Below are positions 2,466 to 13,046 of a DNA stretch of 34,735 nucleotides, piece by piece. Source of the stretch: a virus; the IMG/VR virus record IMGVR_UViG_3300046517_000330, positions 1 through 34,735 of that record; one strand, 5' to 3'. Made by a program: the position numbers and the translations under genes. Numbering within the stretch: the stretch's first letter is position 1; the number at the start of each line of letters is the position of its first letter. Below the pieces are notes generated by a model. That model was not told the origin of the DNA. It searched no databases and worked only from the letters and a program-made list of their open reading frames with translations.

Positions 2466-4505
2466 TTAAACCGTTACGCCGAAGCTGCGCCACGTACCCG
2501 GCGAGCCACCCGCAACACACACGAAACCAACCGGGACGCCAGCCGAATTGCTGAGGTTCGTATTCCAGACGATTTCACCCGCGCCATGTGTCCCGCTTAC
2601 CGGCGCGGCGGAACCATACGAAGTCAACTTGAAATTACTGTTCGCGCCAACGACCGTATAGGGCTGATTGATGCCGATGAACGTTTCGTTCGTTGCCGTG
2701 TTGAAGTTGCAGCCGGTGTTTTCAACGATACCAACCTGGCCGTATGTAGGCTGCGACTGGTTATACGTATTCCGGTAGAACTCGTTTGTCGCACACGTCG
2801 ATCCGAGGTAAATGATCGCGTTGCCAGGCAAGGACTGACCGACGTCGTAGAATTCGTTGTCGTAAACCTTGGATTGAACAACGTTCGTCAGGACGATTGG
2901 CGTATTCAGCAGGTTCGCGAACTTGTTGCCCTTGATCGTCATGCGCGAAGCGTTGGCAAGGCTGATGACATTCCCGCTCAGCACCGGATACGCAGCGTTC
3001 CCAACGATGTTGTCGCTGATGATGAACTGACCAGGACCAGTCAGCGAAATCAGCGCGGCACTAATCTTGGTCCCGCTCAATGCCGTCTTGTGATTGCCCG
3101 AGATGATGCAGTTATACATATTGTTCGAACCTGCCACGCCGCTAATTGGCAAGTCATAACCGCAAAACTCGTTGTTCTTGATCGTCACATCACGAACTTC
3201 TCGCCCCGTCTGCGCAGAAATATTCGCGTGCAGAAGGATCGGTGTTTCGTTGCTCGAAGTCGGATCGGCCGTCCACGTTGAGTTGTGGATATGCGTGTTG
3301 CCAGACCATCCCTGCATGTCGATGCCGATATGTCCGTTCGAGTTCGCCGGAGCATAGAAATCGTTGTGATCCATCAGGGTATCGCCGCCCTGTTGAACCT
3401 GAATGCCGATTGTCGTCGCAAACGTGTTGTACAGAAATTCAGCGACACCATAGCCGGCGTTTGCCAGACCGTAGCCGCTCATGCCGACGAAGCTGTTGCG
3501 CACAACGTGCGAGCGCGTCGAGTAGTTCAGCAGAACGCCGTTCGTAGCGAGGCCATTGCCATCGAACACGAGGCCGTCGATCTTGGTGTAATACGGCGCG
3601 ATATTGCCGTTCGCGTACTGAATGGTCAGCATGGTCGTCATGCTGGCGCCCGCCCTAATCGTGCTTCTTCCGGGCGAAACGATGCTGACAGTCCGAATAT
3701 CGGAGAAATACAGTTGATAGTTCGTGCCGATAACGGGCTGAAGCGGAACCTGAACCGAACACGTCAGCGGCGACTTGATAAGGAACGTTTTGGACGACGG
3801 GAAATAGACCTCACCGCCGACGTTCGCAGCGAGTTGAAACGCCTTATTGATCGCGGCCGAATCGTCCGTCACGCCATCGCCGCACGCGCCGAAATTGGGA
3901 TCTGTCACGTCCCAACGGTGGTTGATGCGGTTGTACAGCGCCGACCCGGGCGCTACGGTGGTATCGACGACGCTTCCGGCAGCCGGCGTATTGATCGGCA
4001 GCGTAACGCCACCCTTGACCCATACTTGCAATACGCCGACCGGAATCGGCGCATTGAACGTGAGCGTCTTGAAATTCAGCGTGTAGGTCGTCGGCGATTG
4101 CGTGATGCCGTCGAACACAACAGAGACGTTACCCTCTGCGCCGTAGACGTTTGCCAGCGTCAGGACGGTAGTCGTGCCCGCAGTGAAATCCGCGCCCGCG
4201 TTGAACACTTCATCGATCAACTGGCCTTGAATCAGACCCGTCGATGCATCCGTAACGATCTGATCCCAAATCGTTACGCCCGATGCGTCGCAAACAACTT
4301 GACGATATGTGCCGCTTCCCCATACGATGGCTTGACCCCGACTGTCAAGCAATACGGGGTTGGTGTTCTGGATCGTGCCGGCTTTATCCTGAAACGTCGG
4401 CAGCGGGTTGGTCGTTCCGGGCGCGTAGTAATAGACGGACCCGCCCGCCAGAGGCGCGCCGTTTTGATCCACGAACTGAAGCTTTGCGTTCGGCAGAAGC
4501 TGCAT
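2466..4505 (-). CDS. Tailspike 1 with virion-binding N-terminal domain
   Basis: 679 residues from the ATG preceded by GAGG; an in-frame TTG four codons upstream sits on the SD itself and is rejected. Residues about 1-90 (MQLLPNAKLQFVDQNGAPLA..., then LDSRGQAIVWGSGTYRQVV) match the N-terminal head/tail-binding domain common in podoviral tailspikes. Residues about 105-166 are a beta-rich module (F-T-A-G-T-T-T ... V-V-F-D-G ... P-I-P-V-G) that recurs at the C-terminus of the protein at 11023-11625. The beta-helix signature FGACGDGVTDDSAAIN lies at about 205-220, followed by beta-helix rungs. Expected role: adsorption to, and possibly depolymerisation of, O-antigen or capsule. It corresponds in position to P22 gene 9. 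Confidence 0.9.
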   Translation of the reverse strand: MQLLPNAKLQFVDQNGAPLAGGSVYYYAPGTTNPLPTFQDKAGTIQNTNPVLLDSRGQAIVWGSGTYRQVVCDASGVTIWDQIVTDASTGLIQGQLIDEVFNAGADFTAGTTTVLTLANVYGAEGNVSVVFDGITQSPTTYTLNFKTLTFNAPIPVGVLQVWVKGGVTLPINTPAAGSVVDTTVAPGSALYNRINHRWDVTDPNFGACGDGVTDDSAAINKAFQLAANVGGEVYFPSSKTFLIKSPLTCSVQVPLQPVIGTNYQLYFSDIRTVSIVSPGRSTIRAGASMTTMLTIQYANGNIAPYYTKIDGLVFDGNGLATNGVLLNYSTRSHVVRNSFVGMSGYGLANAGYGVAEFLYNTFATTIGIQVQQGGDTLMDHNDFYAPANSNGHIGIDMQGWSGNTHIHNSTWTADPTSSNETPILLHANISAQTGREVRDVTIKNNEFCGYDLPISGVAGSNNMYNCIISGNHKTALSGTKISAALISLTGPGQFIISDNIVGNAAYPVLSGNVISLANASRMTIKGNKFANLLNTPIVLTNVVQSKVYDNEFYDVGQSLPGNAIIYLGSTCATNEFYRNTYNQSQPTYGQVGIVENTGCNFNTATNETFIGINQPYTVVGANSNFKLTSYGSAAPVSGTHGAGEIVWNTNLSNSAGVPVGFVCVAGGSPGTWRSFGVTV

Positions 4506-4516
4506 GTATTGCCTCA

Positions 4517-4542
4517 ATAAAAAAACCCCGCACTAGGCGGGG
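4517..4542 (-). terminator. Intrinsic terminator upstream of tailspike genes
   Basis: The minus strand reads CCCCGC-CTAGT-GCGGGG followed by seven T's (TTTTTTTATT). The stem is 6 bp and perfect. It lies directly before the tailspike 1 ribosome-binding site, so the tailspike pair forms a segment bounded by terminators on both sides. On the plus strand there is no T-tract. Confidence 0.82.
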
Positions 4543-4554
4543 TCGGGGGAAAAG

Positions 4555-4755
4555 ATGATTGAAGTACTAGACGCTGACGGCAACGTTATTCACGTTGTTA
4601 CGCGCCCACGCCGCGGGACGGCGTTTGCAATCGACGGCGATAAATTGAAAAGTGCGCCCTCATGGAAGCCGAAGCGGACAGCTCATTGGCTGATCCGCTT
4701 CGTATTTCCGCTACTTCTCCCAGTCGACGCGTGGATTGCGAAACGATTCCGCTAA
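4555..4755 (+). CDS. Small plus-strand ORF inside the minus-strand late operon
   Basis: 66 codons: MIEVLDADGNVIHVVTRPRR, then a basic middle part and a hydrophobic stretch LIRFVFPLLLPVDAWI near the C-terminus. It has a strong SD (GGGGGA four bases before the ATG) and normal phage codon usage. It fills the only sizeable minus-strand gap in the late region, between the transglycosylase gene and tailspike 1, and its 3' end overlaps the transglycosylase stop by 45 bases tail to tail. It looks like an inserted, independently expressed gene (moron-like), but no convincing plus-strand promoter is visible. A strong inverted repeat (4670-4702) lies within it. I recognise no family. It may be a chance ORF. 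Confidence 0.45.
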   Translation: MIEVLDADGNVIHVVTRPRRGTAFAIDGDKLKSAPSWKPKRTAHWLIRFVFPLLLPVDAWIAKRFR

Positions 4756-7395
4756 CTTATTCGCGGAGCGCCGGTTGACGAACTCAGTAGCCTTGCGCGT
4801 GAGCGCTGCGCCCGCCGGGCCAGCGACAGCAGCGCCAAGCGGGCCAAACATCGCAGAGGCCGCGCCGGTCGTTGCTGCGGTCGGCGCCCATATGACCGCC
4901 TTTTGCAATAAGTTATGACCTTGCGCCGCGGCGCCGGGGTAAGCCGTTGGCTTCTGCAGAACATGCCCTGCATCGTTCAACGTACGGAACCGGCTCATTT
5001 CGGCGTCATCGAAAAGAAGCCCCATGCGCGATCGCTGATCGTTCAGTTGCTTCGTCACTTTTGCCGCATTCCACTCTGCGCCCTGCCCCGCCTTATTCAC
5101 CCCATCCGCAAACACGCCCTTCATTTCAGAAAGCGCCTGCTGCGCCATCGGCTGAAGTTCGGCTGGCGCGTTTTTCAGAGTGTCGACGATGTGTCGAAGT
5201 TGACCAACGGGCATCGAGGTGAGCTTTTGGCCGATCTTTTCGTCGGGCACGGCTTGATTGATGCCGCCCGGACCTTCCTCGTTGAGCAGCGAGGAAATTC
5301 CCTTCGGATTGTCGAGAACGTTTTTTCGTTCGGCATGAAGCGCTCGCGCCTGCGCGTACACATCGTCGCCTGCCGACTTTGCCACATCGGAATCTAGCGC
5401 CTCCTTGATTTTGCCGATCAACCCCGAATTCTGAGGCGACCACTGGCCGTTGATGTATTGGCGCACACCTTCAGCCTGCTTAGCCGTCATCGGGTTAAAA
5501 GTGCCATCAGCGTTGCGAATGCCCTGCTCTTTCAGGTATGCATTGATGCCACGCCCAAGAGCGCCGTTTTCCGCCTTGCCGGCGAAATTCGACTTGGTAT
5601 CCATCAGAGAGCCAAACGAATCCGCATCGATGCCAGCAACGCCGCCAGCTCGCTCGTCCGCCGCCTTGTAAACACCGCGAACCGCGTTGTCGTAATAGTC
5701 GTTGAGGCCGCGCAACGGGTCGCGAATGATTTGACCAACTTCCTCCGGCGAGGCGCCACGCGCGCCGGTATCGTGCGAAATTTGCTGTGAGTAATTCTGG
5801 AGCGCAACCCGCTCCTTGTCGAACTGAGCACGCAACACCTCGCCTTGCGGCGTGTCCGTCTTGGCGAGTTGGTACTCATTGCCGGCCGTGAACTTATCGC
5901 CAGAGATTGCGCTTGGGCGATGGTCTTCCAGGCCAACCTCTCGCATCAGGTCTAGATTCTTCTGCTGCTGATCAGGCGCAAGCTTCGCCTTAACCGTGGC
6001 CGGCGCTGAATCGTCGAACTTCGGAATCTCGACAGGAGCGGGAGGCGTCGGCGCTGGCGCAACCTTGCTCGTCGAGTCATTCGCCGCCGCGCCCTTGCCA
6101 ACGGCTTGCGTTGCCGGGGCTTGCGGCAGATCCGGGCGCCCCGCCTGCGCATCATTGACCGCGGCGCGGTTAAGGCCGATAGCATCGTTCGCAGCCGGCG
6201 CGCGCGCGATCGTTGCAGCAGGTTTCGGCACGGCCCCGCCTTGCTCAACCTCGAGAAGAGCCGACAGGTCGTTCGCAGCGGGCGACACCGGAAGGCGTGA
6301 GACGTTGGCCTGCGGCAGGCCCTGCGGAACTTGGCCGACTCCACGGTTAGCGAGTTCGATGCTACCCGGCGTGGGCACCGGAACATCAGACTTGCCAAGC
6401 GCCTTGACGAGAGAATTAGCGCGCCCCGCCAGTTCGGGTGCGACAATCTGCGCCGTCGCGCTAGGGATCACATCGTTGAGCGTCGCCATAAACGGCGATT
6501 GACCCTGTACGAAGTTCTGCTTATAGCCTCCCGCGACAGCCTGCACCGGCGCCGAGTTCACAATCGGGCTGAGTGCGTTATTGGCGACGCGCGCAAAGTC
6601 TGCGTTCGCTTGCTGTCCACCCTCCGTCTGCGGGCGATACGTGAGCGCATTTTGTGTGCTCTCGCCGATCTGCTTCGCCTGATCGAAAGAAACACCCGGC
6701 AGCGCCGCCGCTCCGAGGCGAGCAATCGTTCCGATAGGCGCCGCAATAGCGCCCGTCGCGGCAGTCAGAAGCGGCTCGACAGCAGCGCCGGCCATGTTCT
6801 TGATCGACCATTCCGGCGTACCCGACTTCGGCGACTGCGACGCCTGCGCAGGCTGAGCGGCGGCCTTCGTCGCCATGAGTTTGCTAAACGGATCGCCGCC
6901 AGCAGCAGCCGGCGCGGCCGAAGTTGTCGACCCGCCAATGAGCTTGCTGAACGGGTCGTCGGCCGCCGATGCGACGCCAGCCGTAGGCGGCAGACCGGGA
7001 AGCGCGGATTGCGCCATTGGCTTTCCTTGATAGTTGGCGGAAATGCGCTTGACGTAGCCCTGCGTTTCCGGGAAGTTCGGGATTCCTCCCGCCTTGTCTA
7101 CGGCGCCCGGCCCCGCGTTATAGGCCGCTAGAGCCGTATTCACGTCGCCGTATTTGTCGAGCATCTGGGCCATGTAGCGAGCGCCGCCCATGATGTTCTG
7201 AACTGGATCGCTCGGATTCGAAACGCCCATCTCCTTAGCGGTTGCCGGCATCAACTGCATCAGGCCGGTCGCTCCTTTCGGAGATACAGCGTTCGGATTG
7301 CCCGAGCTTTCCTGAGTCATCATGGCCTTCAGAAGCTTCGGGTCTACGTTGTATTGCTTGCCCGCAGCCTCGAAAGCATCGTCATAGTTCGCCAT
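4711..7395 (-). CDS. Ejection protein with N-terminal lytic transglycosylase (SLT) domain
   Basis: 894 residues. Residues about 5-125 form a soluble lytic transglycosylase domain: catalytic Glu29 in TQESSGNPNAVS, then GATGLMQLMPATA and ALAAYNAGPGAV, the three classical SLT motifs. The rest is Ala/Pro-rich, then alpha-helical, with a small hydrophobic Gly/Ala segment near the C-terminus (AAVAGPAGAALTRK). This is the architecture of a virion-internal protein that locally opens the cell wall during DNA injection. It stands in the position of P22 gene 16, last of three ejection-type genes, and its ATG shares a base with the upstream stop (TAATG). It is unlikely to be the endolysin, which is encoded separately. 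Confidence 0.88.
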   Translation of the reverse strand: MANYDDAFEAAGKQYNVDPKLLKAMMTQESSGNPNAVSPKGATGLMQLMPATAKEMGVSNPSDPVQNIMGGARYMAQMLDKYGDVNTALAAYNAGPGAVDKAGGIPNFPETQGYVKRISANYQGKPMAQSALPGLPPTAGVASAADDPFSKLIGGSTTSAAPAAAGGDPFSKLMATKAAAQPAQASQSPKSGTPEWSIKNMAGAAVEPLLTAATGAIAAPIGTIARLGAAALPGVSFDQAKQIGESTQNALTYRPQTEGGQQANADFARVANNALSPIVNSAPVQAVAGGYKQNFVQGQSPFMATLNDVIPSATAQIVAPELAGRANSLVKALGKSDVPVPTPGSIELANRGVGQVPQGLPQANVSRLPVSPAANDLSALLEVEQGGAVPKPAATIARAPAANDAIGLNRAAVNDAQAGRPDLPQAPATQAVGKGAAANDSTSKVAPAPTPPAPVEIPKFDDSAPATVKAKLAPDQQQKNLDLMREVGLEDHRPSAISGDKFTAGNEYQLAKTDTPQGEVLRAQFDKERVALQNYSQQISHDTGARGASPEEVGQIIRDPLRGLNDYYDNAVRGVYKAADERAGGVAGIDADSFGSLMDTKSNFAGKAENGALGRGINAYLKEQGIRNADGTFNPMTAKQAEGVRQYINGQWSPQNSGLIGKIKEALDSDVAKSAGDDVYAQARALHAERKNVLDNPKGISSLLNEEGPGGINQAVPDEKIGQKLTSMPVGQLRHIVDTLKNAPAELQPMAQQALSEMKGVFADGVNKAGQGAEWNAAKVTKQLNDQRSRMGLLFDDAEMSRFRTLNDAGHVLQKPTAYPGAAAQGHNLLQKAVIWAPTAATTGAASAMFGPLGAAVAGPAGAALTRKATEFVNRRSANKLAESFRNPRVDWEK

Positions 7396-8900
7396 TATTG
7401 GGGACCGTTGATATAGCCGTTTTGGACCGCCCAGTTATATTGCGTGCGGAAGGTTGCTTGCTGCTTCGGATTCATGCTCTTGACCATCGCCTGCACCTTG
7501 GTCGGCTCCATCTGGTCGGCAACGAACACGCGTGGGTCCATCGTCGAGCCAAATTGCGACTTCCACTGACCGTATTGAGACGGTTGCAGGCCGGCGCTTT
7601 CCCACGCCTTCATGCGCGCCTGCTCCATGCGCTCAAGACCAAGGTTCACCTTCACCACGTCTTGCGCGGCAAGGTTGGAGATGTGCGTATTTCCGTTGCC
7701 AGCGATAGCCGCAGCGAGCTGCGAGTCTGTTCCATGCCCGAACGAAGCCGCCTTCTGCTGCGCGTACTGCGTGAGGTACTTATTCGCCTCGTCGTAGGAC
7801 GCAACCTTGTCAGCAGGGCCGCCAAGCGTTGCAACCAAGCCTCGAACTGCGTTCAGCTTGTCGGCGCCCGTACCTGTCTGCGCCTTCGAAAGTGCATCGC
7901 CCGCGTTTTGCAGCATGTTCACGCGCGTTCCTGACTGCGCATTCGACTGCTGATCGGCTGACAGCATGTCGCCGCCTGCCGCGTTCACCTTCTGTTGCGC
8001 CTCTACAGTGCCAGCGGCCGGAGCCGTCTGGAACGATCCGCCAGGATAGCGCCCGTTTCCGCCGTCGCCAGATCCGCCTTGAGGCTGCGCTTGCGGGGGA
8101 AGAAGCCCGCCAACGCCGGTTTGCTTCATGACCGAAGCCGTAGGAACCTTCGAGTGCGAGCCATCCGGGTTGATTACATCGACCATCTGCGCCGCCGTTT
8201 CTGGACCGACCGTGTTTTGGAAAACGGTCGTCGGAGTGACCTGGCCGGAAACTGGACTCTGGTTGTAGAGCGTCGTTCCACCGCCGGTGCTGACGGCGCC
8301 AGTCTTCGGAAGCATGATGCCAAGCTGCTGTGCAGCGCCCGATGCTTGCGCAACGTGATTCGCCGCCCACTGTTGCAATGCACCCTTCGGCGCGTCTGTC
8401 CCAGGCATATCGGCGAGTGCTTGCGCCGCGATCTTTGGCGTAATCTGCCCGCTATCAATTGCGCGTCCGATTGCGGCTGTTACATCAGACGCGGTTGCGT
8501 TCGGGTTGTTCGCGATTGCCCCGGCCGTCTGATACGCCCACCCAATGTGCTTCGCGGCGCTGTCTAGTTGCTCGTTTCCGAGTGCGACATCACCACGCGC
8601 GAGCGTTTGCTGCTGCTGCTTCTGCGTGTTGATGCCCTGAACCACTTCGCCGAGCTTGAAGCCGGCCGCAGGGTTCTGGCTGATGATCGCCATCAGCTTG
8701 TTATTGTCGACCTGACCTGTCGTCGGATCGGTTGCCTGCTGATAGGCGGCAGAGATAGCGCGATTTGCGTCTAGCCCCTGCTGCGCGGCTTGGCCGTTCG
8801 CGTTGTAGGCGCGAAACTGCGCGACCTGCAACGCCTGTTGAAGCGGGTTGATAGGCTGCGGCGCGTTCGTGTTGAGAGCGATACTAGTGTCAAGTGGCAT
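7395..8900 (-). CDS. Putative DNA ejection / internal virion protein
   Basis: 501 residues, rich in Gln, Ala and Asn (for example LQQALQVAQFRAYNANGQAA at about 20-39 and Gln-rich helices near 90-110), with no catalytic motif I recognise. Composition (long, low-complexity, helical, few Cys) and location between the small ejection protein and the transglycosylase protein match P22 gene 20. It probably enters the cell with the DNA and forms part of a channel. That is positional inference; sequence similarity could not be tested. The start ATG is two bases beyond the upstream stop and lacks a good SD, suggesting translational coupling. Confidence 0.72.
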   Translation of the reverse strand: MPLDTSIALNTNAPQPINPLQQALQVAQFRAYNANGQAAQQGLDANRAISAAYQQATDPTTGQVDNNKLMAIISQNPAAGFKLGEVVQGINTQKQQQQTLARGDVALGNEQLDSAAKHIGWAYQTAGAIANNPNATASDVTAAIGRAIDSGQITPKIAAQALADMPGTDAPKGALQQWAANHVAQASGAAQQLGIMLPKTGAVSTGGGTTLYNQSPVSGQVTPTTVFQNTVGPETAAQMVDVINPDGSHSKVPTASVMKQTGVGGLLPPQAQPQGGSGDGGNGRYPGGSFQTAPAAGTVEAQQKVNAAGGDMLSADQQSNAQSGTRVNMLQNAGDALSKAQTGTGADKLNAVRGLVATLGGPADKVASYDEANKYLTQYAQQKAASFGHGTDSQLAAAIAGNGNTHISNLAAQDVVKVNLGLERMEQARMKAWESAGLQPSQYGQWKSQFGSTMDPRVFVADQMEPTKVQAMVKSMNPKQQATFRTQYNWAVQNGYINGPQ

Positions 8901-8902
8901 CG

Positions 8903-9664
8903 TTATACCGTGAAGTAGTTCGGGTTGCCTGCCGCGGTCGTGCCGTAAGTTGGGTTCGCCGCAACGGCCGACGATGCATTGTTGTTCAACAACCCATATG
9001 TAAGGGCCGAACTGCCGACGCTGTTCAGCGCCCCACTTAGCGCATTCGACGAGCCGATCGTCCCGGCCGCGCTCGCATTAGCACCGCTCGTCAGCGTATT
9101 GCCGATGTTGCCGGCCGACGCAGCGCCTAGCGATCCGTTCGTCGCTGCCGCGTTCTGCCCGTTGCTGACAACGCTCTGCAGGCGGTTCACGTTGTTAGAC
9201 GCCGTGTTGTAGTTCGTCTGGAACGTTTGCAACGCGCGGTTGTAGACATCGTTGTACGTCGAGTCAGCCAACCCCGTTGCGTAGCTCGATGCGCCTTTAA
9301 GCGCCGCCCCTGAAGTACCAAGCCCGCGCGCCGCTGCGCTGTTTTGCGTCGCCTTCAGCCCTTGATTGAGCGTGAACTGATACCCTGGGGTCGCCTGCGC
9401 TTCTGCCGCTGTTGGTGCGCTGAACTGCTGCGTCAGCGTGGGGTTCGACAGCGCATCCTTTAGCGGGTTGATGTAGCTAGAACCCAAGTCCATATAGGGC
9501 TTGAGGTTTGCCTGCGTCTGCTCCCACTGTTGTTGTTGAATCTGAGCGGCATTGTTAGCTGCGTCAGCCTGCGTGTTTGCCGCGCTCTTAGATGCGCTCG
9601 ACGAGATCGCAGCACCACCGATCGCGCCGGCAGCGGCGATAGAGCCGCCAATAACGATTGCCAT
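8903..9664 (-). CDS. Putative DNA ejection protein, membrane-active N-terminus
   Basis: 253 residues. The N-terminus MAIVIGGSIAAAGAIGGAAI is a Gly/Ala-rich hydrophobic segment that could insert into a membrane. A Gln/Ala-rich helical region follows, and the second half is Asn/Ser/Ala low-complexity. Proteins with this N-terminus in this place of podoviral operons (after the tail accessory genes, before larger internal proteins) are usually annotated as injection proteins; the position equals P22 gene 7. SD GAGGG stands seven bases before the ATG. No enzymatic motif is seen. Confidence 0.75.
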   Translation of the reverse strand: MAIVIGGSIAAAGAIGGAAISSSASKSAANTQADAANNAAQIQQQQWEQTQANLKPYMDLGSSYINPLKDALSNPTLTQQFSAPTAAEAQATPGYQFTLNQGLKATQNSAAARGLGTSGAALKGASSYATGLADSTYNDVYNRALQTFQTNYNTASNNVNRLQSVVSNGQNAAATNGSLGAASAGNIGNTLTSGANASAAGTIGSSNALSGALNSVGSSALTYGLLNNNASSAVAANPTYGTTAAGNPNYFTV

Positions 9665-9674
9665 TAGTTAGCCC

Positions 9675-10127
9675 TCAAAGCCATTTGCCATACAGTTTTT
9701 CGACCGGCTCAAATTTCAGGAATTCGAACAGCGCGCTCGCGTCCTGCTTTACCTTGCTGCTGACAACCCAATAGTTGACACCGCGCCGCTTCAGTTCCTT
9801 TTCCGTGAACCGGAACAGCTTTGCGCCGTCCCATCCGCCGCGCTTGTCCTTGCGCAGATAGAAGATATCCAGATGACAGGTAAGGCACGTTTTGTAGTGA
9901 AGGCCTGGTGCGATAAATCCGATGAAATAGCCGACCAATTCGCCGCGCTCACGCATCGTCACGAACAGCAAGCCGCCGAGCCTTTCGCGCTCGATGTACG
10001 TTGAGAACTGCGGATCGAGCGGGAATCCCGCATCCCTGTGCAGAGACAATTCTTCGTAGTGGACAGGAAGCAGCGCCTTTAGTTCTGGCAGCGTTTCTTC
10101 GAAACTCTCGGCGGCGATCGTTATCAT
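9675..10127 (-). CDS. GNAT-family N-acetyltransferase
   Basis: 150 residues. The centre has the GNAT core: a strand GGLLFVTMRERGELVGYFIG, then HLDIFYLRKDKRGGWDGAKL, where 'V/F-x-L-x-x-x-x-R-G-x-G-x' normally binds acetyl-CoA, then FTEKELKRRGVNYWVVSS and a C-terminal FLKFEPVEKLYGKW. The pyrophosphate loop reads RKDKRGGWDGAKL, slightly divergent from Q/R-x-x-G-x-G/A. The ATG at 10127 (AAGG seven bases upstream, ATGA overlap with the oxygenase stop) is preferred to a TTG two codons earlier. The acceptor is unknown. Placement within virion genes and coupling to an oxygenase suggest modification of a phage or host protein; this is inference. Confidence 0.8.
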   Translation of the reverse strand: MITIAAESFEETLPELKALLPVHYEELSLHRDAGFPLDPQFSTYIERERLGGLLFVTMRERGELVGYFIGFIAPGLHYKTCLTCHLDIFYLRKDKRGGWDGAKLFRFTEKELKRRGVNYWVVSSKVKQDASALFEFLKFEPVEKLYGKWL

Positions 10128-10684
10128 TTGCAAGCCTTGATATCGACGATCAAGTGAATGCGATCGTCTGCGCTGTTGTTGATGACTGAATGCATCGACG
10201 AGTTATCGAACCACCATACTTCGCCGACGCGCATCTGAACCGTTTCGCCGCCCGCGTGGAACACGGAGCCGGGAAGCGATTGGAGGACGATGTGATACCG
10301 CTCGAAGTAAGCCGCGTGATCTCCGCTATCAACATGCGGATCGATAACGGCGCCCGGCTTCAGCTTCGTGATGATGCAGCGCCCCAGGCGTTCTCCTTCA
10401 ACGCGGGCCATCAGCGCGAAGATCAGTGCGCGAGCCTGCGGAAGCGCATAGAACGCCGGGTAATTGATGGATTCATGCTGATCCATCACATGCGCCGGAT
10501 CTGCGGTTTCCTCGTATGTTTTCAGGTCATTGAACCGAAGCCAAATGTCATCGACTTGCGTATGCGGCGAACTCTGATGCGTCGTGCGCAACAAGTTTTG
10601 ATTCCACAATTCAGGGCTTCGCGCCAGCGCAGAAAGAAGCGGCATCACGTCGACGCCTTCAGCGATCTTCAGGAAGTTTCTCAA
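10124..10684 (-). CDS. 2OG-Fe(II) oxygenase, aspartyl/asparaginyl hydroxylase-like
   Basis: 186 residues with a double-stranded beta-helix iron site: H117-x-D119 in IDPHVDSGD, H165 in SSMHSVINNS, and R175 in DDRIHLIVDI as likely 2-oxoglutarate ligand. RYHIVL and GEVWWFDN are typical of aspartyl/asparaginyl beta-hydroxylase-like folds. It probably hydroxylates a protein side chain or small molecule using O2, Fe(II) and 2OG; the substrate is unknown. The start is TTG, sharing bases with the upstream stop (TTGA) and preceded by AAAGGA at six bases. The next in-frame ATG is 13 codons in and has no such SD. It overlaps the GNAT gene by an ATGA junction, forming a coupled two-enzyme cassette inside the virion gene cluster. 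Confidence 0.85.
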   Translation of the reverse strand: MRNFLKIAEGVDVMPLLSALARSPELWNQNLLRTTHQSSPHTQVDDIWLRFNDLKTYEETADPAHVMDQHESINYPAFYALPQARALIFALMARVEGERLGRCIITKLKPGAVIDPHVDSGDHAAYFERYHIVLQSLPGSVFHAGGETVQMRVGEVWWFDNSSMHSVINNSADDRIHLIVDIKACK

Positions 10685-11019
10685 GCGCTATCCTTTACGT
10701 ATTCGATCCCGCTTATGCTGATCGAGCAGCCGTTACCGTCCGCGTAAAGCTGCGTGCCGGGTTCGAGTTTGTGATTGACCAGCTCAGGGAACTGCGCGGT
10801 CGCGCCGGCGCCTATGTTCTTTGACGCGATGCGCGTCGTCCCGTCAGCGGAGCGGCCAGCCGGAACCTTGTAGACGTTGAGCGTCACGACGCCGCCAGTC
10901 GGGTTGTTCGCGCTTGCCGCCTGAATAGATGCCGACGTAGCGGTTGCTGCGGTGTACAGGCTAGACGCGGCACCGGTCAGCGTCGCGCCCTTCACCATTT
11001 CTTTATATGTTGTTGTCAT
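10681..11019 (-). CDS. Small putative virion protein, beta-rich
   Basis: 112 residues: MTTTYKEMVKGATLTGAASS, then alternating hydrophobic/Thr-Ser segments such as GGVVTLNVYKVPAG and CSISISGIEYVKD, suggesting a compact beta-sandwich. No motif identifies it. Similar-sized beta proteins are common between tail genes and ejection genes in short-tailed phages; the position corresponds to P22 gene 14. SD GAGGG stands six bases from the ATG. It ends in a TTGA overlap with the oxygenase gene, so the two are translated together. Confidence 0.72.
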   Translation of the reverse strand: MTTTYKEMVKGATLTGAASSLYTAATATSASIQAASANNPTGGVVTLNVYKVPAGRSADGTTRIASKNIGAGATAQFPELVNHKLEPGTQLYADGNGCSISISGIEYVKDSA

Positions 11020-11022
11020 GCC

Positions 11023-11625
11023 TTACCCTCGTGCATAGACTGTCTGCGTGCCGACAGGGATCGCAGATGTGAACGTGATCGTCGTTCCGGCGATCGTGTA
11101 TTGGTCGCTGCCCTGGAATACGCCGTCGAAATGCACCGTGACGGCCGCGGCGTTCGCGTATGCCTTCGATAGCGTCAGGCTCGTCGTTGTCCCAGGCGTG
11201 AAACCAGTTCCCGAGACGAATCGATCTTCAACCGTCGCCGTCATCGCGTCGAGCTTCGCCTTGTCCGCACCCGACATGAAGCCGTTCGCCGTTTGCGTAG
11301 CGACTGCATGAAGATCCGGCGCGTCCTGTATGCCGTGCGTCGGGACGAACGAATCAGGCTCGCTCTGCGTCACCGCGCCAGCAAGCACAGAAAGCGTCGC
11401 CTCGACGTCAGCAATACGCAGCGCGGCCCCGTAATCGACCGGCACCAGCGAGGCGATCTGTTGAGCCACTTCCGACAGTTCCTGAGTCGATCCGCTATCT
11501 CCCGATGTGCCGCCAGTTCGATTGAAAAGCGCGATCAGAAGCTGGAACCAGACCATCGAAAGCCGGCCCGTCTTCGGGTCGACCAGCGGCACGCCGACGT
11601 CTGGAAAGTTTGTCGGCGTGCTCAT
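11023..11625 (-). CDS. Putative tail needle/fibre-type protein sharing a module with tailspike 1
   Basis: 200 residues from the ATG overlapping the gp10-like stop (ATGA). An in-frame start nine codons upstream lacks support. The N-terminus has VPLVDPKTGRLSMVWFQLLI, a motif frequent in phage tail fibres ('dp.tGrps..w...l'). The middle has HAVATQTANGFMSGADKAKL, another common tail-fibre motif. Residues about 137-200 form the beta module FTPGTTTSLTL ... VHFDGVFQG ... SAIPVGTQTVYARG that also lies in tailspike 1. The position corresponds to P22 gene 26, the needle plug, but no long trimeric coiled coil is visible, so I call it only a tail-tip or fibre-type virion protein. Confidence 0.7.
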   Translation of the reverse strand: MSTPTNFPDVGVPLVDPKTGRLSMVWFQLLIALFNRTGGTSGDSGSTQELSEVAQQIASLVPVDYGAALRIADVEATLSVLAGAVTQSEPDSFVPTHGIQDAPDLHAVATQTANGFMSGADKAKLDAMTATVEDRFVSGTGFTPGTTTSLTLSKAYANAAAVTVHFDGVFQGSDQYTIAGTTITFTSAIPVGTQTVYARG

Positions 11626-13046
11626 GTCCTGGCCCTCGACACATCGACCCATGCGCCGTTAAGCGCAGTCTTGACCGGAGCGGACCATGACAGCTCGAAC
11701 ACGCGATCGCGCGCATAGCCGAGGCGCTGCCATTGAATCGACGTGAGGTATTCGCCAGCCCTGCCAAGCGAGTTTGTTACCGCGTTTCCCCAACTGCGCC
11801 CGCGGTCATCTGACCAGCGCAGCCGAATCTCAGGCTCTGCGGAGTCGCCGGGCAGGCCGTTACCGACTTCCATATCCGCGATGAATTGCCGGAACAGGAC
11901 GCGGTTTCCATCGGCTCCGCTGATGTGCGGGAAGCCTCGAACGCAGAGCAGCGGGTTACCGTTGTCGGTATATGCGTTCTGGTCGAGCGCGTACACCTTG
12001 CCGGTTTCCCAATCGCCAACGAGGTTTTGGCCGCCATTGAACGAATAGCAGTTCGCGCGGTGCCGGCTGAATGTGCCGTCTGCCTCCAGATATCCACGCT
12101 CAGCCCATTGGCCCGTTGCCGTGTCGAAGCACCACGTCTTATTGGCGGTCGGGAACGTCAGCACGTAGAACGCGTGGCCGCCTTGCAGGTACGAAAAGCC
12201 GATCGCGTCGTCTATCCGGCTGTACGTTAGAAACTCCTGCTCCATCGCGTGTGTCGAGATCCGCTCAGCCGCGTAGTTGCGGCCGGCGAAAACAACGCCC
12301 TGCCCTTGCAAGTCTTTCCCGACCCAGAACAGCGCGAGATCGATCTTTGCGACCGAGTGCTTCGCAGCGCATCCATGCTCGATGTACACACCCGGCATGC
12401 GGCCGAACGTGAAATCTGATGCGCCGGTGTTGTACCAAACTTCGGTTGTCTGCTCGCCGAACAACCAGATTTCACGGTGCATCACCGCAAGCGTTACTAG
12501 ATTGTCTGCATACGTCGACTTCGACGCGATATCGAGCGAATCGAACGTAATGTCGTTGTATTTCGAGATGTAGAAGTGCTGCGTGCCAGGCTGATTGAAC
12601 ACGAAATAGCCGTCGACATAATCCACGCGATCAGCCCCGTAGAAAGCGGGGTCAGCGCATGGGATCATCACATTGGTTGTGATATCGAGCGTGAATCCGT
12701 TCTTGGAACCGTCGACAATGAACGCGTTCGTCCCGTTGTCGACCATCGACACAACGCCCGAAAGCGTGGAAAGCGCGCCGATCTGCGTATAGACGTTCGA
12801 CGAATCCACGTAGTAGACATTCATGCCGACCACTTCGTAACGCTTGCCATTCGATGCCGTGTAGATGCAACGACTTTCCGCGGCAATGGGCGGCGTCGAA
12901 ACGAGCGTGAGGCCCGGTGTCGGGTAATACGTGAACTGCGCGGCCGAGTCTTGCGGGTTCTGCTCAGCGTACAAATTGACCGACCGCTGTGCGTTAGCGA
13001 TGACGCTTTTCGCGGTGTACGCACCGCCAGTCAGAGGAATCCGCAT
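11622..13046 (-). CDS. Tail accessory factor / packaged-DNA stabilisation protein, P22 gp10-like
   Basis: 474 residues, the length of P22 gp10 (about 472). The N-terminus MRIPLTGGAYTAKSVIANAQ followed by RSVNLYAEQNP and YPTPGLTLV is the characteristic opening of this family. The rest is beta-propeller-like with repeated aromatic-Gly turns. It would close the portal-gp4 assembly to retain packaged DNA and mount the needle and tailspikes. Its start overlaps the gp4-like stop (TGATG), and its stop overlaps the next start (ATGA), the same gene order as P22 4-10-26. Confidence 0.9.
   Translation of the reverse strand: MRIPLTGGAYTAKSVIANAQRSVNLYAEQNPQDSAAQFTYYPTPGLTLVSTPPIAAESRCIYTASNGKRYEVVGMNVYYVDSSNVYTQIGALSTLSGVVSMVDNGTNAFIVDGSKNGFTLDITTNVMIPCADPAFYGADRVDYVDGYFVFNQPGTQHFYISKYNDITFDSLDIASKSTYADNLVTLAVMHREIWLFGEQTTEVWYNTGASDFTFGRMPGVYIEHGCAAKHSVAKIDLALFWVGKDLQGQGVVFAGRNYAAERISTHAMEQEFLTYSRIDDAIGFSYLQGGHAFYVLTFPTANKTWCFDTATGQWAERGYLEADGTFSRHRANCYSFNGGQNLVGDWETGKVYALDQNAYTDNGNPLLCVRGFPHISGADGNRVLFRQFIADMEVGNGLPGDSAEPEIRLRWSDDRGRSWGNAVTNSLGRAGEYLTSIQWQRLGYARDRVFELSWSAPVKTALNGAWVDVSRART

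Follow-up and report, generated by a model that had tools for sequence, protein, structure and literature searches.

A conserved oxygenase and acetyltransferase gene pair directly before a phage DNA-ejection protein: a candidate maturation cassette

It has long been asked how ejection proteins get out of the phage head, unfold and form a membrane channel, and the locus described here raises that question in a particular form: why do genes for two enzymes, a 2OG-Fe(II) oxygenase and a GNAT acetyltransferase (hereafter referred to as OX and GNAT, respectively), stand just before the gene of such a protein? The window, by which we mean the whole stretch of 34,735 bases analysed, is the IMG/VR virus record of a short-tailed phage and carries the virion genes on its minus strand. 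Read in the order of transcription, these genes encode a P22 gp10-like stabilisation protein (a label taken from position and annotated relatives), a 209-aa protein, a small protein (SMALL), OX, GNAT, the gp7-type ejection protein EJ1, a second ejection protein EJ2 and a protein with an SLT domain (Table 1). A first-pass annotation of this DNA had reported TTGA and ATGA overlaps joining SMALL to OX and OX to GNAT, and both are present in the sequence; the range that it gave for the enzyme pair, 10124-11019, is right for OX and SMALL and leaves GNAT outside. For GNAT, an alternative TTG start two codons 5' of the ATG is also possible. SMALL, the partner in the TTGA overlap, precedes OX often, not always, in the loci of relatives. 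OX, GNAT and EJ1 are probably translated from one message. Elsewhere in the virion genes, a short FDG-type domain seems, by eye, to be common to the tail spike (2466-4517, minus strand) and the 209-aa protein (11023-11652, minus strand), as if the latter were a tail adaptor.

Table 1. Features of the oxygenase-acetyltransferase-ejection protein region, in window coordinates
Feature	Position	Strand	Evidence
SMALL, 112-aa protein, phrog_20100	10681-11019	-	PHROGs E 1.4e-8
TTGA stop/start overlap SMALL/OX	10681-10684	-	read in sequence
OX, PF05118 2OG-Fe(II) oxygenase, 186 aa, TTG start	10124-10684	-	ORF and Pfam
ATGA stop/start overlap OX/GNAT	10124-10127	-	read in sequence
GNAT acetyltransferase, 150 aa, ATG start	9675-10127	-	ORF, PHROGs, model
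EJ1, gp7-type DNA-ejection protein, proposed substrate, N-terminus MAIVIGGSIAAAGAIGG	8903-9664	-	phrog_598 E 3.2e-30
EJ2, second ejection protein	7395-8900	-	by position; without family match
Third internal/ejection protein, SLT transglycosylase domain	4711-7395	-	PF01464 E 5.3e-32

OX matches the Pfam family PF05118 (Asp_Arg_Hydrox) with an E-value of 4.6e-17 and 62.7 bits, against a cut-off of 22.6. It carries the Fe(II)-binding HxD...H and the 2OG-binding R; these residues, H117, D119, H165 and R175, lie at the numbers claimed by the first-pass annotation and are kept in 141, 140, 140 and 139, respectively, of 141 distinct relatives, the exceptions being one gap each at D119, H165 and R175 and one K at 175. 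The predicted structure (pLDDT 93.7) was compared with solved ones, among which proline hydroxylases, a nucleoside-antibiotic hydroxylase and AspH were nearest and tied in VIA-align Z (proline 3-hydroxylase, 15.3; 7v4m, 15.2; proline 4-hydroxylase, 14.8; AspH, 14.5). The substrates of these tied matches are free proline, a nucleoside antibiotic and EGF-like domains, so that the fold, by Foldseek and VIA-align, fails to separate protein hydroxylases from those of free amino acids. L-proline cis-4-hydroxylase (4p7w), proline 3-hydroxylase (1e5r) and AspH (5apa), all of PF05118, have both the fold and the sequence profile in common with OX and differ among themselves in substrate; the AspH entries include a TPR domain, which OX lacks. 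The earlier suggestion that OX hydroxylates Asp or Asn was not borne out, given this tie with the proline and nucleoside-antibiotic hydroxylases and the composition of the neighbouring protein: an alignment of 106 EJ1 rows has no Asp/Asn column conserved at 70 percent or more. Comparison of OX-bearing phages with 6 OX-less ones yielded no OX-specific residue, the conserved EJ1 columns being largely common to both, and an EJ1-specific hydroxylation site was rejected on these grounds.

The acetyltransferase identity of GNAT is supported by PHROGs, by its relatives and by its model. The match of the window protein itself to Pfam PF00583 (E 0.023, 15.4 bits) is below the cut-off of 20.7; its relatives P0005, P0007 and L006 pass that cut-off, and PHROGs assigns the protein firmly to phrog_1249 (E 9.7e-10). 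In Foldseek, 263 PDB chains matched the model (pLDDT 94.8) with E-values of 0.001 or lower, the 50 matches listed being acetyltransferases or structural-genomics entries of GNAT fold. Its top match was 7n1l, a ribosomal-protein-alanine N-acetyltransferase (E 1.3e-8, TM 0.75), and the top PDB sequence match of the GNAT profile was NAA30; both are N-terminal acetyltransferases by name. The RimI-type N-terminal alanine acetyltransferases 7n1l and 5isv, the closest Foldseek matches, are only 17-19 percent identical to GNAT, and VIA-align Z ties RimI with aminoglycoside (AAC(3)), polyamine and other acetyltransferases. H23, H77, Y78, D87 and K125 are invariant in 125/125 sequences, and E26 and R96 are kept in 124/125; we refer to these as conserved polar positions and assign no catalytic role to any of them singly. 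Both OX and GNAT look intact.

Co-occurrence of the two genes in other phages, which the first-pass annotation had set as a check, was then found to be extensive. Among IMG/VR stretches, relatives of OX were encoded in 345 of 413 and relatives of GNAT in at least 582 of at least 599, and we kept the best 80 of each (of 345 and of at least 582, respectively) for profile searches over all open frames. OX and GNAT were adjacent in 143 of 160 distinct loci from phage records and IMG/VR; 132 of the 160 had an EJ1 match as well, and 11 more had the pair without one. GNAT adjoins OX in 68 of the 80 OX-selected loci; the other 12 comprise 4 contigs that end 0-119 bases past OX and 8 that carry a cupin-like gene. 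Conversely, OX adjoins GNAT in 80 of the 80 GNAT-selected loci, and the adjacency is more than chance. The two samples contain near-identical contigs and consist of the sequences closest to the queries; the counts therefore describe this clade, not all phage GNATs. As a rule, the pair stands directly before a gp7/gp14-type ejection protein (hereafter EJ), and in most of the printed loci without an EJ1 match, the next gene again begins with a hydrophobic stretch rich in Ala, Gly and Val. The nearest annotated case is Pseudomonas phage PfAn1, with the order SMALL-OX-GNAT-EJ1 and identities of 49 and 45 percent. In Limnohabitans phage DC33, OX and GNAT are adjacent between the terminase and a T7-type portal, and a 107-aa protein with an Ala/Val-rich start (L003:9070-9393) lies between GNAT and the portal; the cassette thus sits in a different virion layout, in a record filed under Inoviridae despite its terminase and portal. 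That so many related viral sequences carry this three-gene block points to a role of the enzymes in readying the injected protein for its task.

The two genes also occur separately. GNAT is found without OX in MW202796, Vibrio phage 1.253.O and three EJ-selected loci, and OX is found without a GNAT or cupin match in MW202665 and in Pseudomonas phage Itty13, in the latter without virion neighbours. Bacterial genomes contributed 27 loci, mostly from Burkholderiales and Sphingomonadales with one from Acinetobacter, showing the same order or the cupin variant; in the most distant of them (L283-L287), OX was the only one of the profiles tested to match. One of these, a distant OX homologue in Profundibacterium (L284:4995-5576), has chromosomal-looking surroundings that include an ABC transporter-like ORF and the gene of a P-loop protein, and no phage genes were seen in its neighbourhood.

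To view the same position from the side of the ejection protein, we collected 80 IMG/VR loci with four EJ queries, two of them from OX-less phages. These loci contained 0 OX, 3 GNAT and 47 cupin-like genes, and 30 had none of these. From the EJ-anchored sample together with reference phages, 65 of the 81 listed proteins in the slot upstream of EJ were scanned, 16 being left out (12 of SMALL type, two near-copies and the phiAX1 and PBR31 proteins); the scan returned 14 Cupin_2, 9 weak cNMP_binding, 6 SET and 1 weak GNAT matches. In L072, L085, L090, L276-L280, L282 and the 47 EJ-selected loci (within L181-L260), the place of GNAT, or of the entire cassette, before EJ is taken by a cupin-like protein, whose gene precedes OX in some loci and comes after OX in others. 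PHROGs labels the cupin-like members of DSL-LC05 and P26218 'short tail fiber', so an ordinary structural role of this family is possible. The SET domain, a protein-methyltransferase type of fold, is C-terminal in the 6 of 65 slot proteins that have it (best E 7.6e-12), as in L230:2668-3516 and, weakly, in P26218 (L172:3889-4764). Divergent GNATs were considered upstream of EJ in L194, L203 and L242, which lack the EJ aromatic described below, and in PBR31; since the matches are weak (Pfam Acetyltransf_7 E 0.003, below cut-off, for L203; hhalign probability 13.6, E 0.0021), they were not counted, nor was the PAE2 slot gene (Acetyltransf_4 E 0.027, below cut-off).

The N-terminus of EJ varies with the occupant of this slot. 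EJs of loci with both OX and GNAT typically start with M-V-A-A-A-V; those of loci with a cupin-like gene or no enzyme start like MTFWVAGAVVGS, MSFVAAAI, MPWM or MAGWMAAAVVGS, and those of loci with OX and a cupin-like gene start with MPW or MPF. EJ1 of the window, with MAIVIGG, is unlike the usual MVAAAV. An aromatic residue (W or F) at positions 2-6 is present in 9/127 EJs of OX+GNAT loci and 1/4 of loci with GNAT only, against 48/50 with a cupin-like gene, 26/33 with neither and 3/3 with OX and a cupin-like gene; the two rows with OX alone (0/2) are both misread frames. Five of the 9 aromatic exceptions among OX+GNAT loci (L042, L098, L102, L104 and L126) have an N-terminal extension before a VAAA-like stretch. 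There are exceptions on the GNAT-less side too: rows lacking both GNAT and the aromatic number 9, besides the two misread ones, and only part of them may hide a divergent GNAT, to judge from the weak matches.

Shared ancestry was taken into account with a FastTree phylogeny of EJ, built from 187 rows with the first 32 residues removed and with misread, short and identical rows dropped; 12 named loci had been dropped beforehand as misread or truncated. The tree gave 12 independent contrasts for GNAT. Over random pairings, the aromatic differed in the opposite sense in 7.7 of these on average and in the same sense in 0.0, a single same-sense case appearing in a few pairings; the median p was 0.0078 (range 0.0078-0.125), for a measure chosen post hoc. 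For OX, 2.7 of 7 contrasts were of opposite sense (p 0.25), and the notion that OX tracks the aromatic change was rejected. The aromatic measure was picked after the sequences had been read, and EJ start codons were assigned by rule; we therefore take the covariation of GNAT and the aromatic as a lead that needs a fresh sample. Proline does not accept N-acetylation, and its presence as the second residue was also considered as the mark of GNAT-less loci; the idea was set aside, as it fits the OX+cupin rows but Thr, Ser or Ala stands there in others of the cupin group.

The explanation that we favour, at about even confidence, is that OX and GNAT together serve as a conserved cassette for the maturation of EJ1, for which we infer catalysis, substrate, site and effect on ejection. 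EJ1, as a gp7/gp14-type protein, would have to bring a hydrophobic N-terminal stretch into the envelope of the host, and the two enzymes, whose genes come just ahead of its own and overlap in their stop and start codons, would act on it. GNAT would acetylate EJ1, at its N-terminus or at a neighbouring amine. Loss of the N-terminal charge could then let a plain Ala/Val segment enter the membrane without an aromatic anchor, acetylation taking over the role of the near-N-terminal aromatic kept by GNAT-less phages. OX would hydroxylate EJ1 itself or one of its partners within the ejection complex, a suggestion based on its position and conservation; in other phages its slot is held by a cupin-like or SET-domain protein. 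This division of labour, with GNAT as the acetyltransferase of the EJ N-terminus and OX as an accessory hydroxylase, is one that we would back and doubt in equal measure as regards both chemistry and substrate. The first-pass idea that the enzymes serve the neighbouring ejection protein thus gains from the conserved order in diverse phages and from the covariation of GNAT with the EJ N-terminus, and its Asp/Asn chemistry is left without support.

What is reported of the known members of this class bears on the favoured explanation in two ways. The first 20 amino acids of P22 gp7 are removed by the host protease OpdA, leaving a mature N-terminus KGGKG (record note; PMC8402733, as far as its available text goes), so N-terminal maturation of the gp7 class has precedent. 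The same partial text gives a burst of about 60 percent for P22 with this 20-residue leader deleted, and the N-terminal state of EJ may accordingly matter little. T7 gp14 ends in the outer membrane after ejection (PMC11784390, available part).

The equivalent place in P22 and T7 is not empty. In P22, a head-morphogenesis gene, gene 14 (DUF2824, PF11039), comes directly before gene 7 (PF25688), followed by 20 and 16, which contradicts the first-pass statement that P22-like operons have structural genes only at this point. T7 likewise has a small gene, gene 13 (PF11090), directly upstream of gene 14 (PF24072) in its internal-virion cluster. Unlike the present locus, neither pair comes with an oxygenase, and in P22 it is the gp7 leader that is removed, by OpdA. 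GNAT had no detectable homology by hhalign to the T7 gp13 family PF11090 (probability 0.1, E 0.6), which we take to belong to the GNAT clan, or to DUF2824 (probability 0.2, E 0.34, with a single P22 sequence). GNATs have been noted at this place: in Cobavirus/SIO1, pc40 lies beside internal virion proteins and was suggested as the T7 gp13 counterpart (PMC6775973), and in vB_PaeM-G11, the ORF39 GNAT precedes gp14 (PMC10142737). In the portions available of these two papers, the function is a suggestion and no adjacent oxygenase partner is described.

P22 gp14 and T7 gp13 are thought to act as assembly factors on the ejection protein during head assembly. OX and GNAT could do the same, as non-catalytic, chaperone-like factors that bind EJ1 and re-use enzyme folds as scaffolds; P22 gene 14 and T7 gene 13, annotated as head morphogenesis and probable scaffold, share their position, and in the available part of the Cobavirus paper a GNAT so placed is connected with T7 gp13 (PMC6775973). 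A pure scaffold, however, would not need the invariant metal- and 2OG-binding residues of OX and the invariant polar residues of GNAT, and GNAT is without detectable sequence relation to either protein; we hold this account to be improbable. A second alternative, that OX hydroxylates a free amino acid or metabolite and GNAT acetylates a small amine, both being auxiliary metabolic or resistance genes placed by chance in a late operon, we judge unlikely, if slightly less so. It agrees with the best structural relatives of OX, the free-proline and nucleoside-antibiotic hydroxylases, with the equal likeness of GNAT to AAC(3) and polyamine acetyltransferases, with the distant OX homologue of Profundibacterium (L284) amid no visible phage genes, and with the treatment of such genes as auxiliary metabolic genes in the consulted parts of PMC12195039, PMC6918029 and PMC11288001. 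Neither the place directly before EJ in diverse phages and virion layouts nor the covariation with the EJ N-terminus would be expected for a free metabolite.

Instead, the enzymes might have a host target, for instance in the envelope or the translation machinery, and either be packaged and injected to reach it or act on it early. Their place in a late operon among ejected proteins would suit this, as would the resemblance of GNAT to RimI, which in the cell acts on ribosomal protein S18; the covariation, however, is with the phage's own EJ, and we regard a host target as very unlikely.

The first-pass annotation had expected a two-enzyme virion-modification cassette to be new. No description of the OX-GNAT-ejection block was found in the literature searched, beyond whose reach most subscription papers lay; the block is absent from the accessible portions of PMC12195039, PMC8954989, PMC6775973, PMC6918029, PMC10142737, PMC8402733, PMC4992974, PMC10883804, PMC11784390 and PMC11288001. 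Each half is known separately from such partial texts: the DC33 OX is described as an auxiliary gene (PMC12195039), and CRP-810-type phages are credited with a GNAT, a 2OG-Fe(II) oxygenase and an aspartyl hydroxylase as auxiliary genes (PMC11288001). What appears to be new, as far as these sources extend, is the conserved block of two enzymes before the ejection protein; an assembly gene at this slot is not, since gene 14 already occupies it in P22 and gene 13 in T7.

If the maturation reading is right, a dedicated, conserved enzyme pair encoded just ahead of the channel protein would open a chemical step of its maturation to experiment in the cultured phage PfAn1. We know of no chemistry assigned to P22 14 or T7 13, and the cassette might explain why these genes occupy that place. 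The locus also counsels caution before oxygenases and GNATs of this kind are classed among the auxiliary metabolic genes.

A broader reading, which we put forward tentatively and with more doubt than belief, is that short-tailed phages use the slot ahead of their gp7/gp14-type ejection protein quite generally for modification enzymes. Lineages would place OX with GNAT, GNAT alone, a cupin-like protein with or without OX, or a SET protein of lysine methyltransferase type there, and each occupant might chemically tune the membrane-inserting N-terminal segment of the injected protein. Were this true, post-translational modification would be a routine step in building the phage DNA-ejection channel.

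Several EJs of OX+GNAT loci (L026, L034, L105, L109 and L126 among those listed) begin with a leader of about 20 residues that has a KLRGE-like motif, and in L026, L105, L109, L126 and others the motif is often followed by Cys-x-VAAAV. The start of P22 gp7 contains KLRGE, and by eye it resembles these leaders.
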